From Paracoccaceae bacterium (GTDB lineage: Bacteria; Pseudomonadota; Alphaproteobacteria; Rhodobacterales; Rhodobacteraceae), in assembly GCA_012270125.1 (NCBI GenBank), contig JAAXIY010000002.1:62001-126000 (forward strand): a DNA stretch of 64,000 nt. The letters are read 5' to 3'. Position 1 is the stretch's first letter, and every line of letters begins with the position of its first letter. Below the pieces are notes generated by a model that was not told the DNA's origin, did no database searches, and saw only the letters and a program-made list of their open reading frames with translations. A program made the position numbers and the translations under genes. Of this stretch, positions 8,796-33,199 are shown one piece after another.

Positions 8796-10943
8796 TTACT
8801 CTTTATCGTCGCTTTTTTCTTTTTTATCTTCTTTTATTTCTTCACCGGTCTCTTGGTCTACTACTTTCATAGACAACCGAACTTTGCCTCTGTCATCAAA
8901 GCCAAGTAGCTTTACTTTAACTTCCTGACCTTCCTTAAGAACATCAGATGGATGATTTATGCGGCGATTTTCTATCTGACTGACATGCACCAAGCCATCT
9001 CTTTTGCCAAAGAAGTTTACAAATGCGCCAAAATCGACAACCTTAACAACCTTACCAGTGTATATTTCGCCAACTTCTGGTTCAGCTACAATTGAGTGTA
9101 TCATATCGTAAGCATTCTTTATAGCGTCCGCGTCATTGGAAGCTATCTTAATTTGCCCGTCGTCGTTTATGTCAACTTTGGCCCCCGATGTCTCGACTAT
9201 TTCTCTTATAACTTTTCCGCCGGATCCAATAACTTCTCGGATTTTATCGGTAGGGATTTGCATGGTCTCTATTTTGGGCGCATGAACAGAGAATGACCCG
9301 GCCTCAGAAATAGATTTAGACATTTCTCCGAGGATGTGCATTCTGCCATCCTTTGCCTGTGCAAGAGCATTTTTCATAATTTCTGAGGTAATCCCTGCAA
9401 CTTTTATATCCATTTGGAGTGAAGTAATGCCATTTTCAGTACCAGCCACTTTGAAATCCATATCACCAAGATGGTCTTCGTCGCCTAAAATATCGGTTAA
9501 AATCGCATATGAGCTGTCTTCTTCAAGAATTAAGCCCATCGCAACACCAGCCACTGGAGCTTTCAGTGGTACACCGGCGTCCATCATTGAGAGAGAACCT
9601 CCACAGACGGATGCCATGGATGAGGAGCCGTTTGATTCAGTAATTTCGGAAACAACACGAATAGTGTATGGGAAGTCTGTTGCAGCTGGCAAAACAGCTT
9701 GTAATGCTCTCCAAGCTAGCTTTCCGTGGCCTATCTCTCTTCGACCAGGCGAACCCACCCTACCAACTTCACCTACTGAGTATGGAGGAAAGTTATAATG
9801 CAGAAGAAAATTAGAGCGAAAGTTACCATGCAGGGCGTCGATTATTTGCTCATCGTCTCCGGTGCCCAGGGTCGTCACGACCAATCCCTGTGTTTCTCCT
9901 CTAGTGAATAGAGCTGATCCATGGGTTCTTGGAAGAAAACCTGTCTCACAAACGATGTCTCGAACATCAGTGGTCTTTCTTCCATCGATACGTTTGCCTG
10001 TTTTTACGACATCCCCTCTCAATATCGACGCTTCTAGTTTTTTCATAGCCGATCCCAAATTAGGATCTTCTAATTGCTCTTCGGTCAGGCTAGATTTTAT
10101 AGACTCTCTCGCTTCTGATACTGCAGCTACTCTTTCCTGTTTATCCTTTAAAGAAAAAGCACTTCGCATGCTCTTCTCACCGGCCTTTTTAATCGCATTA
10201 TAAAGATCCGAATAATCAGGAGCTTTGAAATCAAAGGGTTCATTTGCTGCGTCTTCGGCTAATTCAATTATGAGATCAATCACAGGTTGGATTTGTTCAT
10301 GAGCAAAATTTACTGCTCCCAACATTTCATCTTCAGTTAATTCATAAGCTTCGGACTCAACCATCATCACTGCATCTTTTGTACCGGCGACGACCAAATC
10401 TAGTCTCTGTTCGGGGTTGGTTCTAAGCTGATCCATATCTTCAACTTCTGGGTTCAAGATATATTCACCGTCGACATATCCTACCCTCGCGGCACCTACG
10501 GGGCCCATAAATGGTACACCAGAGATGGTTAAAGCAGCTGAGGCTGCAATCAAAGCTACGATATCTGGATCATTAACTAAGTCATGGGATAATACTGTGC
10601 ACATTACTAAAACTTCATGCTTGAAGCCTTCAACGAATAATGGACGCATTGGTCGATCGATCAAACGTGCAGTGAGAGTTTCTTTTTCAGTAGGACGCGC
10701 CTCTCTTTTGAAAAATCCTCCAGGTATTTTTCCTGCTGCATAATACTTTTCTTGATAGTGAACTGTCAGAGGGAAGAAGTCCTGTCCTTCTTTCATTTCC
10801 TTTGCAAACGTCACATTTGCCATTACCGAAGTTTCGCCCAAAGTTGCGATCACAGTACCATCGGCTTGACGAGCTACTTTTCCAGTTTCTAGTGTTAGGG
10901 TTTCTTCACCCCATTTCATACTTTTTTTAAATTCTTTAAACAT
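8796..10943 (-). CDS. pnp: Polyribonucleotide nucleotidyltransferase (PNPase)
   Basis: 3'-to-5' phosphorolytic exoribonuclease of the RNA degradosome. The 715-aa product has the two RNase PH-like domains ([19 protein letters not shown] in the first; [20 protein letters not shown] and [18 protein letters not shown] in the second), then a KH domain ([10 protein letters not shown]) and a C-terminal S1 domain ([18 protein letters not shown]). It ends in a charged Lys/Glu tail. ATG at 10943 has SD AGGAAG. It follows rpsO by 217 bp on the same strand, the conserved rpsO–pnp order, with a hairpin-rich leader that suggests post-transcriptional control. Confidence 0.98.
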
Positions 10944-30996: not shown

Positions 30997-32643
30997 TCAC
31001 GCAAACTTACCTTGGCAAAACCAGCCTGACGATGTTAATCCCCCATGTGCGTAATAAATCCATAATCGATCACCTGTATTACACTCAACAAACCAGTAAT
31101 CACGCACACCACTGCGCCATTTTGGTTCATCTAACCACCATTCAGGTGAAATTCGTTCTGGCCCGTAGCTTCTAGTAATATACCATATTTTTCCACGCCA
31201 CCTAAACTCCAATAAGGGGTTTGGTTTATCTGGAGCGCTGATGATTTCAGGCGCCCATAATTGAACGGGTCGGTAAGATTTTGGTTTTGGCCAATCTTTT
31301 GCCGGCTCAGACCATGCGGCTGATAGTGTAGTGTAAGTCTTCTCGGGTATATTACTTTTTGCTGGGTGTAGTCGTGTAATATTTTCTAGCCCAATCCTAG
31401 CCCCCAACCTGGATATTAAATCTTCCGGACTTATGTTTCGTTTGTACCGTGACTTATTGCGCTCGCTCACTAGCGAGTGTCCAATGTGTTTATGTTGAGT
31501 GAGAACTTCGACTTTTAGGGCCTCTAATCTTAAAATATCTATTCCAAACCCCACATCCAAATTTTCAAGTTTAATTATGATTAGACCACGAATGTGTTCA
31601 AAATTATTAGAAGCTTGAGCTAAACCAACTTCAATATTTTTTATTGTATTATCTGTTCGGAAGGCTTGTAATCGGACTTTCTGGGTACCAAGAGTTTTCT
31701 TTTTTAAATTAGAACAAAGGCGATCCAGTATACGATCAAGACCAGCTATAATATCAGGCTTTAATCCAATTGGATCAGGAAAGCTAATTCTTACACCAAA
31801 ATTTAACTCTGGCTGTAATGGTGAAATAGGCTCTAAGAGGCTACCGAGTGCTTGGTCTACTCGTTTTAGTAAATTACAACCAAACCGGCGATTAAGACTT
31901 GCTCTTGGTTGGTTTATAACATCACCAATTTGACGTAACCCCAGTCGGACCAATGTGTGCTCAGTTTGAATTTCTAGTCTCAGAGCTGCAACTGGTAGAT
32001 TAGAGATTGACTGTCTTATTTTGCCAGACGGTGCAATAAAATACTTGCTATTTTTAGTAAGTCTTAAGTTATCTTTTATGCTTTGAAGAGATCGCTTTGC
32101 AGAACGAGAACGTGTTGCTCTTGCTTCTTGTTCAATGGTATCGCCATTTCTATAATTTTTGACTACTTTTTCTGAATATCGAGATAAAGCCCAGGCTGCT
32201 CCTACTGTGTCTGCACATCCTATTTTACTTGTTAAGCCTATTTCATCATAGGCAAGTAAAATATGTTTTATCATTTTATTTTCACCACCAAATAGATGTG
32301 AACACCCTGTTATATCCATGATTAATCCCGTATCTCCTTCAATGGCTACCCATGGGCTAAATTTACTAGACCATCGGCAAATACCCTTTAAGAACTGATT
32401 TTCTGCATGTGAGTTTTGAATTTTTATGAATAAATTTGGGCAAATAGCGCTTGCATCACGCAAAGACTGTCCAGCAAAAATACCTTTAGACTGTGCAACT
32501 GAACACAAGGAAGTAATAATTTCACTTTGCGATTTGTTGGTCACAACAACGATTGGTTCTCTTAAATTATGCTGTGTTTTGCGCAAAATACGTTCAGCTC
32601 CCATGTATGGAAACCAGATTGCAATAATTCGACGATTAGGCAT
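30997..32643 (-). CDS. imuB: ImuB-like Y-family DNA polymerase homologue
   Basis: 548 aa; Y-family fold of the ImuB type, an accessory factor that recruits DnaE2 to translesion synthesis. The N-terminus reads IIAIWFPYMGAERIL, where active Y polymerases have an acidic metal ligand, so it should be catalytically inactive as known for ImuB. The C-terminal tail matches ImuB (GVRDYWFVECNTGDRLWIYY, SGWFCQGKFA). A perfect alphaproteobacterial SOS box lies 18–32 bp upstream of its ATG. Neither imuA nor dnaE2, its usual partners, flanks it; a cytochrome c' gene diverges instead. Confidence 0.88.
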   Translation of the reverse strand: MPNRRIIAIWFPYMGAERILRKTQHNLREPIVVVTNKSQSEIITSLCSVAQSKGIFAGQSLRDASAICPNLFIKIQNSHAENQFLKGICRWSSKFSPWVAIEGDTGLIMDITGCSHLFGGENKMIKHILLAYDEIGLTSKIGCADTVGAAWALSRYSEKVVKNYRNGDTIEQEARATRSRSAKRSLQSIKDNLRLTKNSKYFIAPSGKIRQSISNLPVAALRLEIQTEHTLVRLGLRQIGDVINQPRASLNRRFGCNLLKRVDQALGSLLEPISPLQPELNFGVRISFPDPIGLKPDIIAGLDRILDRLCSNLKKKTLGTQKVRLQAFRTDNTIKNIEVGLAQASNNFEHIRGLIIIKLENLDVGFGIDILRLEALKVEVLTQHKHIGHSLVSERNKSRYKRNISPEDLISRLGARIGLENITRLHPAKSNIPEKTYTTLSAAWSEPAKDWPKPKSYRPVQLWAPEIISAPDKPNPLLEFRWRGKIWYITRSYGPERISPEWWLDEPKWRSGVRDYWFVECNTGDRLWIYYAHGGLTSSGWFCQGKFA

Positions 32644-32660
32644 TATGAAAATCTAATTTT

Positions 32661-32675
32661 GTTCATGTTTTGTTC
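32661..32675. promoter_or_regulatory. LexA (SOS) box, alphaproteobacterial type
   Basis: GTTC-N7-GTTC exactly: GTTC at 32661–32664, seven bases, GTTC at 32672–32675. This direct repeat is the established LexA target in Rhodobacter and other alphaproteobacteria. It lies immediately upstream of imuB, as expected for a damage-inducible mutagenesis gene. Confidence 0.75.
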
Positions 32676-32767
32676 TATAATTGATTTTAATCCTAAAGAG
32701 CAATTAGAATTTTCTGTCCTAAGCTAAAAAGAAAACTATCTTGTAAGATGTAAAATTGGAGATTGTG

Positions 32768-33199
32768 ATGTTAAAAGGTCTTGTAAGCTTATCGCTTAGC
32801 TTAGTTTTTCTGTCTAGCGGAACAATAGTATTAGCTGCTGAAAGTGGATATGTTGCGCGTTCTAATCTGATGCAAAACATCAGGTCGGAGTTTTCTGTTC
32901 TTGCTCGCATGGCACAAGAAAAAATTCAGTTTGATGAAAGTTTAGCCGAGTCCACACGCTTAACCTTATTGAACCTTGCGGCTTCAGCTCCAACTATTTT
33001 TGAAGATAATGAGTTACCAATTAACTCTGAAGCTTTGCCTGCGATTTGGGAAAATTGGGAAGATTTTGTAAGCAAATCGGAAGACTTTGAATTTGCTTTA
33101 GAGGGAATTGAAACATCAACATTAATAGATTTAAGAAGTTCGCTTGGGAATGTTGGAGCAACATGTGGCTCCTGTCATCAAAAATATAGAATGAAGTAA
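32768..33199 (+). CDS. Periplasmic cytochrome c' / c-556 family protein
   Basis: 143 aa with an N-terminal signal peptide ([19 protein letters not shown]) and a single haem-binding CGSCH at the C-terminus (Cys133, Cys136, His137), the cytochrome c' / c-556 layout of a four-helix bundle. The sixth-ligand position cannot be judged from sequence alone. ATG at 32768 has SD GGAG; the in-frame TTG at 32756 overlaps that SD region. It diverges from imuB and precedes the formaldehyde dehydrogenase, but a functional tie is only inferred. Confidence 0.88.

Follow-up and report, generated by a model that had tools for sequence, protein, structure and literature searches.

One of the closest described systems is the imuA–imuB–dnaE2 cassette of Proteobacteria, which is treated as LexA-regulated wherever present in one study (PMC3323433) and termed 'contiguous or split' in another (PMC3919608). 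According to PMC10883770, no gene pair covaries in rate more strongly than imuB and dnaE2 (R 0.800), which lie in one operon in P. inhibens. PMC12926913 presents a model in which ImuB contacts DnaE2 through PHP and (HhH)2 and binds ImuA, and PMC3919608 gives a C-terminal SRDF[H/R] motif for about 77% of DnaE2s. For D. shibae, a plasmid cassette is named (PMC9426580) and LexA sites have been predicted (PMC6473078), with imuA, imuB and dnaE absent from the main text of the latter.

We examined a window of 64,000 nucleotides (the whole stretch of DNA analysed) from a Paracoccaceae bacterium, in which an earlier note had recognised an ImuB-type protein apart from its usual partners. We consider it probable that this imuB is one of four dispersed genes, each with a LexA-type box, that specify a complete but disassembled ImuA–ImuB–DnaE2 error-prone translesion machine, with the OB domain of DnaE2 rejoining in trans.

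An imuB gene with an exact SOS box

The gene and its box (Table 1) are as the earlier note had described them: the reading frame matches PF00817 above cutoff (2.6e-14, Pfam scan), an exact GTTC-N7-GTTC stands just upstream, and neither imuA nor dnaE2 adjoins imuB among the surrounding open reading frames of the window. The box reads GTTCATGTTTTGTTC as given and GAACAAAACATGAAC on the imuB strand. Aligned to DinB of the same genome (contig C30), the sole other PF00817 protein there, ImuB has the D and DE catalytic acidic positions replaced, as is expected of an ImuB. DUF6504 scored weakly at residues 478–533 (13.8 bits against a cutoff of 24.2); the C-terminal region can be aligned with cassette ImuBs. 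ImuB had no matches in the PDB. DinB carries a cysteine-rich N-terminal extension (CRKCF...CPICRSP) ahead of its polymerase domain.

Table 1 Features at the imuB locus, in window positions
Feature	Position	Strand	Remarks
imuB, split-type ImuB (Y-family fold without catalytic acids)	30997–32643	-	548-aa ORF, ATG start
Exact SOS (LexA-type) box GTTC-N7-GTTC	32661–32675		17 nt upstream of imuB ATG; pattern match
IMS (Y-family palm/fingers) domain	32182–32583	-	ImuB residues 21–154, Pfam PF00817
Insert between palm and thumb	32047–32169	-	Approximately residues 159–199; conserved QEARATRSR stretch; predicted disordered
Divergent cytochrome c' gene (PF01322)	32756–33199	+	Context only

On one side imuB is flanked by genes that we take, from their translations, to be lspA and purH, and on the other by the divergent cytochrome c' gene and an alcohol dehydrogenase gene. 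A cytochrome c' homologue occurs at 12 of 30 split-type imuB loci.

We rejected the raw number of boxes as evidence, as there was no enrichment in the window or in the genome. The window holds 4 exact boxes, against a shuffle mean of 1.32, with 4 reached in 4 of 100 shuffles, and the genome holds 35, against 70 for a reversed control pattern. The other three boxes in the window (at 10409, 43360 and 58824) lie inside longer minus-strand ORFs of 715, 322 and 718 aa and look like chance occurrences. The box signal is one of position and conservation, not of number.

Partner genes elsewhere in the genome

The genome that contains the window is a 2.157-Mb assembly of 85 contigs with a completeness of 96. 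It has no contiguous imuA–imuB–dnaE2: imuA is on contig C5, imuB on C54 (the contig of the window) and dnaE2 on C39. One of its two PolIII-alpha genes encodes a DnaE2 of 961 aa, which scored 1217.5 bits against the error-prone polymerase model NF004225 (cutoff 939) over positions 6–938 of 1047 and is preceded, 12 nt upstream, by the box GTTCTTGTTTTGTTC. An identical box stands 16 nt before a 197-aa gene on C5. The product of this gene scored weakly against the ImuA profile NF033429 (18.4 of 150 bits), and we call it imuA because cassette genomes have its homologues immediately ahead of imuB. This ImuA has no match to the Walker A pattern G-x4-GK[ST]; PMC12926913 describes most ImuAs as having no Walker A.

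Exact boxes also stand upstream of lexA (32 nt), uvrD (40 nt) and recA (53 nt), so that in this genome the exact box is found at imuA, imuB, dnaE2, the OB gene described below, lexA, recA and uvrD. The genome-wide search for dnaE2, imuA and further boxes that the earlier note had proposed thus recovered both genes, boxed. Calling this ImuB an 'orphan' is misleading, because imuA and dnaE2 are elsewhere in the genome, each with a box. The first alternative offered in that note, that the partners sit elsewhere under the same regulator, gains support at the level of sequence from the presence of both genes and their near-identical boxes.

DnaE2 is encoded in two genes

The DnaE2 core of 961 aa stops at position 938 of the 1047-position model. 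A gene on contig C12 (4890–4540 of locus L022) encodes a protein of 116 aa, with its own box, that covers NF004225 positions 944–1037 and has the DnaE2 model as its best NCBIfam match. In Pfam it is an OB fold (PF01336, 9.7e-15), and its only match in the PDB was E. coli Pol III alpha (E 0.19). No intein model was listed in NCBIfam and Pfam scans of the DnaE2 core and the OB protein. Judged by profile coverage, this DnaE2 is split, with its C-terminal OB domain encoded by a separate boxed gene. The division of DnaE2 into two boxed genes is not visible from the window and so was missing from the earlier note, whose interpretation as a whole we regard as partly supported.

Conservation of the boxes

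Boxes were counted at the 30 loci that scored best in each search, or 44 in the case of OB; among those for ImuA, the G034 locus belongs to a genome with a fused cassette as well. An exact box was found near the start of imuB at 29 of 30 loci (the window's own included; the exception is L060), of imuA at 30 of 30, of the OB gene at 42 of 44 and of dnaE2 at 6 of 30, with box-to-start distances being approximate because start codons were picked by script. Most dnaE2 boxes are one base off: an exact box or GAAC-N7-GAAT occurs at all 30 loci, the last base of GAAC-N7-GAAT running into a TATAAT-like element. Among nine named relatives the exact box was present at the OB gene in 9/9 and at imuB in 9/9, and dnaE2 had 4 exact boxes and 4 of the GAAC-N7-GAAT form; in Pseudoruegeria (L237), the stretch scanned at dnaE2 held no box even with one mismatch allowed. 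The background was 9 exact sites in 531 kb of fetched loci. These positions would fit LexA control of the genes.

The OB gene is divergent from a ferredoxin gene in 54 of 54 loci, and the box between them might serve the ferredoxin and leave OB outside SOS control. This explanation accounts for the invariant divergence and for the fact that, read as GAAC-N7-GAAC, the box faces the ferredoxin in the orientation seen at imuA, imuB, dnaE2, lexA, recA and uvrD. We consider it very unlikely, as the box is 2 nt from the OB start in 24 of 52 measured loci and 70–170 nt from the ferredoxin in 49 of 52, and the promoter-like elements fit the OB strand: the box contains TAT.TTT, and TTG or TGG stands 18 nt before it in 36 of 51 loci, with a spacer of 16 nt. 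In genome G076, moreover, the OB gene has its box ~5 nt before an in-frame ATG, and its 3-kb locus has no ferredoxin match. With the start codon only 2 nt past the box in those 24 loci, the layout suggests that the OB mRNA may be leaderless.

Distribution of the split

We searched the same 120 genomes of the family with one query each for ImuA, ImuB, DnaE2 and OB. OB was found in 107 of them, detached in 46 and fused in 61. The detached cases are 44 frames of 134–343 aa together with G083 (197 aa) and G076 (frame of 400 aa); the fused cases have frames of at least 1073 aa, or are G084 and G088, assigned after checking, or G008, which has a fused copy besides a cut one. We rejected G084 and G088 as detached because OB there is next to fragments of DnaE2, where a contig ends or the frame is broken, and the short OB of G008 because it starts at base 21 of its contig in a genome with fused copies. 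G030 has both a split set, on contig C1, and a fused cassette, on a contig of 126,304 bases (L187).

In the 47 split-type genomes tabulated, which leave out G076, imuA is on another contig than imuB in 38 and more than 50 kb away from it in 9. The distance between imuB and dnaE2 is up to 10 kb in 6, 10–50 kb in 4, larger or across contigs in 35 and not comparable in 2. OB is present in 45 of the 47 and missing in G039 and G059, both drafts with the core present. The core is missing in G046 and G056; that of G056 is cut by a contig end. G046 (7 contigs, completeness 100) has boxed imuA, imuB and OB (L186, L225 and L226), and only DnaE1 answers the DnaE2 query; either OB outlives the core there or loss of the core was recent.

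A sample of the order comprised 149 genomes, all of the same family and overlapping the 120, and OB was in a separate frame of 128–330 aa in 52 of them, counted from the matches listed. In a sample of the class, OB was found in 93 of 192 genomes and was detached, once four short frames had been checked, only in the window genome and G146, both of the same family. A phylum sample gave OB in 150 of 299 genomes, with no relocated OB outside the family among the matches listed. Overall, the short frames are accounted for by contig ends, frames that are broken or decayed, a chimera, and a second OB copy next to a full-length DnaE2. On these grounds we rejected as detached OBs the four class frames (G291, G181, G261 and G177), the phylum frames listed (G642, G482, G493 and G679) and G382 of the order sample. 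In G679 (L254) the DNA that encodes OB is repeated immediately after a full-length dnaE2, a tandem partial duplication. All nine named relatives (Rhodobacteraceae MED-G52, AG-343-P20 and AG-390-A18, Paracoccaceae cluster1_bin.51, Pseudoruegeria, Pseudooceanicola nitratireducens, Seohaeicola zhoushanensis, Nioella and Psychromarinibacter) have OB as a detached gene, apart from the core.

Genome reduction or assembly breaks could in principle have left imuB as the remnant of a decaying cassette, since the window genome, a draft in 85 contigs, is only 2.16 Mb in size. We give this account almost no credence. An assembly artefact is rejected by recurrence of the split in 46/120 family genomes, mostly much larger than this one, and in 9/9 named relatives, and the split is also seen in single-contig assemblies such as G040 and in few-contig ones like G052. 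Decay fits poorly with parts that are all intact and boxed and with the dN/dS of ImuB (given below). Relatives of 2.9–5.6 Mb share the arrangement, which led us to reject streamlining; with all parts present, the second alternative of the earlier note, a reduced mutasome in a streamlined genome, is not supported.

Origin and order of events

In a quick tree of core columns (53 rows, G083 inside), split-type DnaE2s fell on one side of a branch with an SH-aLRT of 99. A careful tree of 31 of those rows without G083 gave the split-type branch 100/98, as did one of 34 rows with candidate intermediates, in which G076 was deepest. In the sampled trees, the split has one origin.

Several genomes resemble intermediates. 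In G004, imuA and imuB are ~10 kb apart and dnaE2 is on another contig, and in G032 the genes are on three contigs; both have a fused OB and an SRDFH tail. The detached OB of G076 ends in a tail remnant, HPRDQSKLLF, with a WPRPP motif and the box already present, and the ImuBs of G076 and G083 are without the insert motif described below. The probable order is dispersal, then release of OB, then gain of the ImuB insert and loss of the tail. The DnaE2 tree places G004 and G032 among the cassette genomes and not at the base of the split clade (the branch with G004 is weak, 84/53); the two may therefore represent parallel cases and not ancestors.

We take the gene beside dnaE2 in the window genome to be DUF2794. 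DUF2794 also stands at 14 of 30 imuB loci and is there a trace of old linkage. In four genomes with a fused OB, imuA adjoins the same aldo/keto reductase as in the split clade (L263 in G032, L267 in G023, L269 in G034 and L275 in G082); three of the four also have imuB beside dnaE2 elsewhere.

Sequence changes that accompany the split

The C-terminal SRDF motif occurs in 21 of 22 clustered DnaE2s, in none of 31 split-type cores and in none of 45 OBs. The cores L131 (G059) and L132 (G113) end in HPRSVRHFG and HPRNVRFFS, possible remnants of the tail of DnaE2. An N-terminal WP[RK]PP is present in 38 of 44 detached OBs and 9/9 OBs of the named relatives, and in 0/22 clustered DnaE2s. Split-type ImuBs carry the insert motif Q.A.ATR.R in 27 of 30 cases, clustered ImuBs in 0 of 22. 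The insert is basic, and residues 159–199 are disordered in an AlphaFold model (10 sequences, mean pLDDT 68.8, pTM 0.46). Genomes G083 and G076, where OB is detached and ImuB shows no insert motif, indicate that it is not required. The insert, WP[RK]PP and the loss of the tail all arose in a single clade, so their co-occurrence effectively counts as a single event.

Between the window genome and four near relatives, dN/dS was 0.060–0.095 for OB, 0.059–0.072 for the core and 0.118–0.155 for ImuB. By this measure OB is under purifying selection and about as constrained as the core.

A polymerase that may reassemble in trans

We propose that in one lineage the cassette genes would have become separated, each ending with its own box, and that DnaE2 would have been cut at the linker between (HhH)2 and OB, so that the OB fold came from its own gene. 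On DNA damage, LexA would be cleaved and the separate promoters would fire. ImuB, as a clamp-binding scaffold, would then bind ImuA and the DnaE2 core, the core contacting ImuB through PHP and (HhH)2 without OB; none of the modelled contacts is said to use OB, and the core should therefore still be recruitable. The OB domain of DnaE has a role with single-stranded DNA. The OB protein would rejoin in trans and handle template single-stranded DNA, and would be needed for mutagenesis. Candidate docking sites are its N-terminal WP[RK]PP or, for most species, the surroundings of the ImuB insert next to the thumb. G046, G039, G059, G076 and G083 supply the main evidence against docking at the insert or a strict need for all four parts. 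We lean, by a little, towards the fuller version, in which a C-family polymerase has been divided, with no sign of an intein in the scans, into two SOS genes that are transcribed independently, OB has become a regulable subunit that docks to the mutasome in trans through a new N-terminal motif, and mutagenic synthesis needs four separate SOS promoters.

The detached OB may instead have left the polymerase to become an independent SOS-induced single-stranded-DNA-binding protein, with the DnaE2 core working without it. Several DnaE2 sequences without an OB domain are described in PMC3919608, G039 and G059 have cores for which no OB was found, G046 has an OB without DnaE2, and the OB protein is a generic OB fold (PF01336). 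We nevertheless regard this as rather improbable, as OB and core have similar dN/dS and are both boxed, OB accompanies nearly all tabulated split-type genomes, and the DnaE2 model is still its best NCBIfam match.

The clade offers a natural experiment on what two parts of DnaE2 do, the OB domain and the SRDFH tail, the one separated and the other dropped across the whole clade. It also shows that dispersal of its genes need not end a mutasome that is usually encoded as a cassette, and that surveys in which such DnaE2s count as OB-less or such ImuBs as orphans overlook parts. One probable member of the split-type group of marine bacteria is the genetically tractable marine strain Dinoroseobacter shibae, which would make the role of each piece in damage-induced mutagenesis directly testable.

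Comparison with known systems

No separate DnaE2 OB gene was described in the titles and abstract openings of the open-access literature searched. Cassette dispersal was reportedly treated by Erill et al. in 2006, so the scattering of the genes may in itself be known already. The imuA–imuB–dnaE2 cassette of Proteobacteria, the usual state in the rest of the sampled family and class, has the same three proteins and LexA-type boxes; here the loci and boxes are separate and DnaE2 comes from two genes. In mycobacteria, too, dnaE2 lies apart from imuA'–imuB and serves one mutasome, according to PMC6511836, whereas here imuA and imuB are also apart and the OB of DnaE2 has moved to a fourth gene. The OB-less DnaE2s of PMC3919608, which could include members of this clade, likewise end after (HhH)2; in the present case OB survives as a boxed gene at another locus. 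The cyanobacterial DnaE split by an intein, as described in the same source, is likewise a C-family polymerase from two genes, but here the break falls between domains, the products covering model positions 6–938 and 944–1037. Finally, the DnaE2X systems of PMC12926913 have a stand-alone ImuB-C and an inactive PolY, so that a mutasome component is likewise two proteins; there ImuB is divided, and here it is the polymerase.
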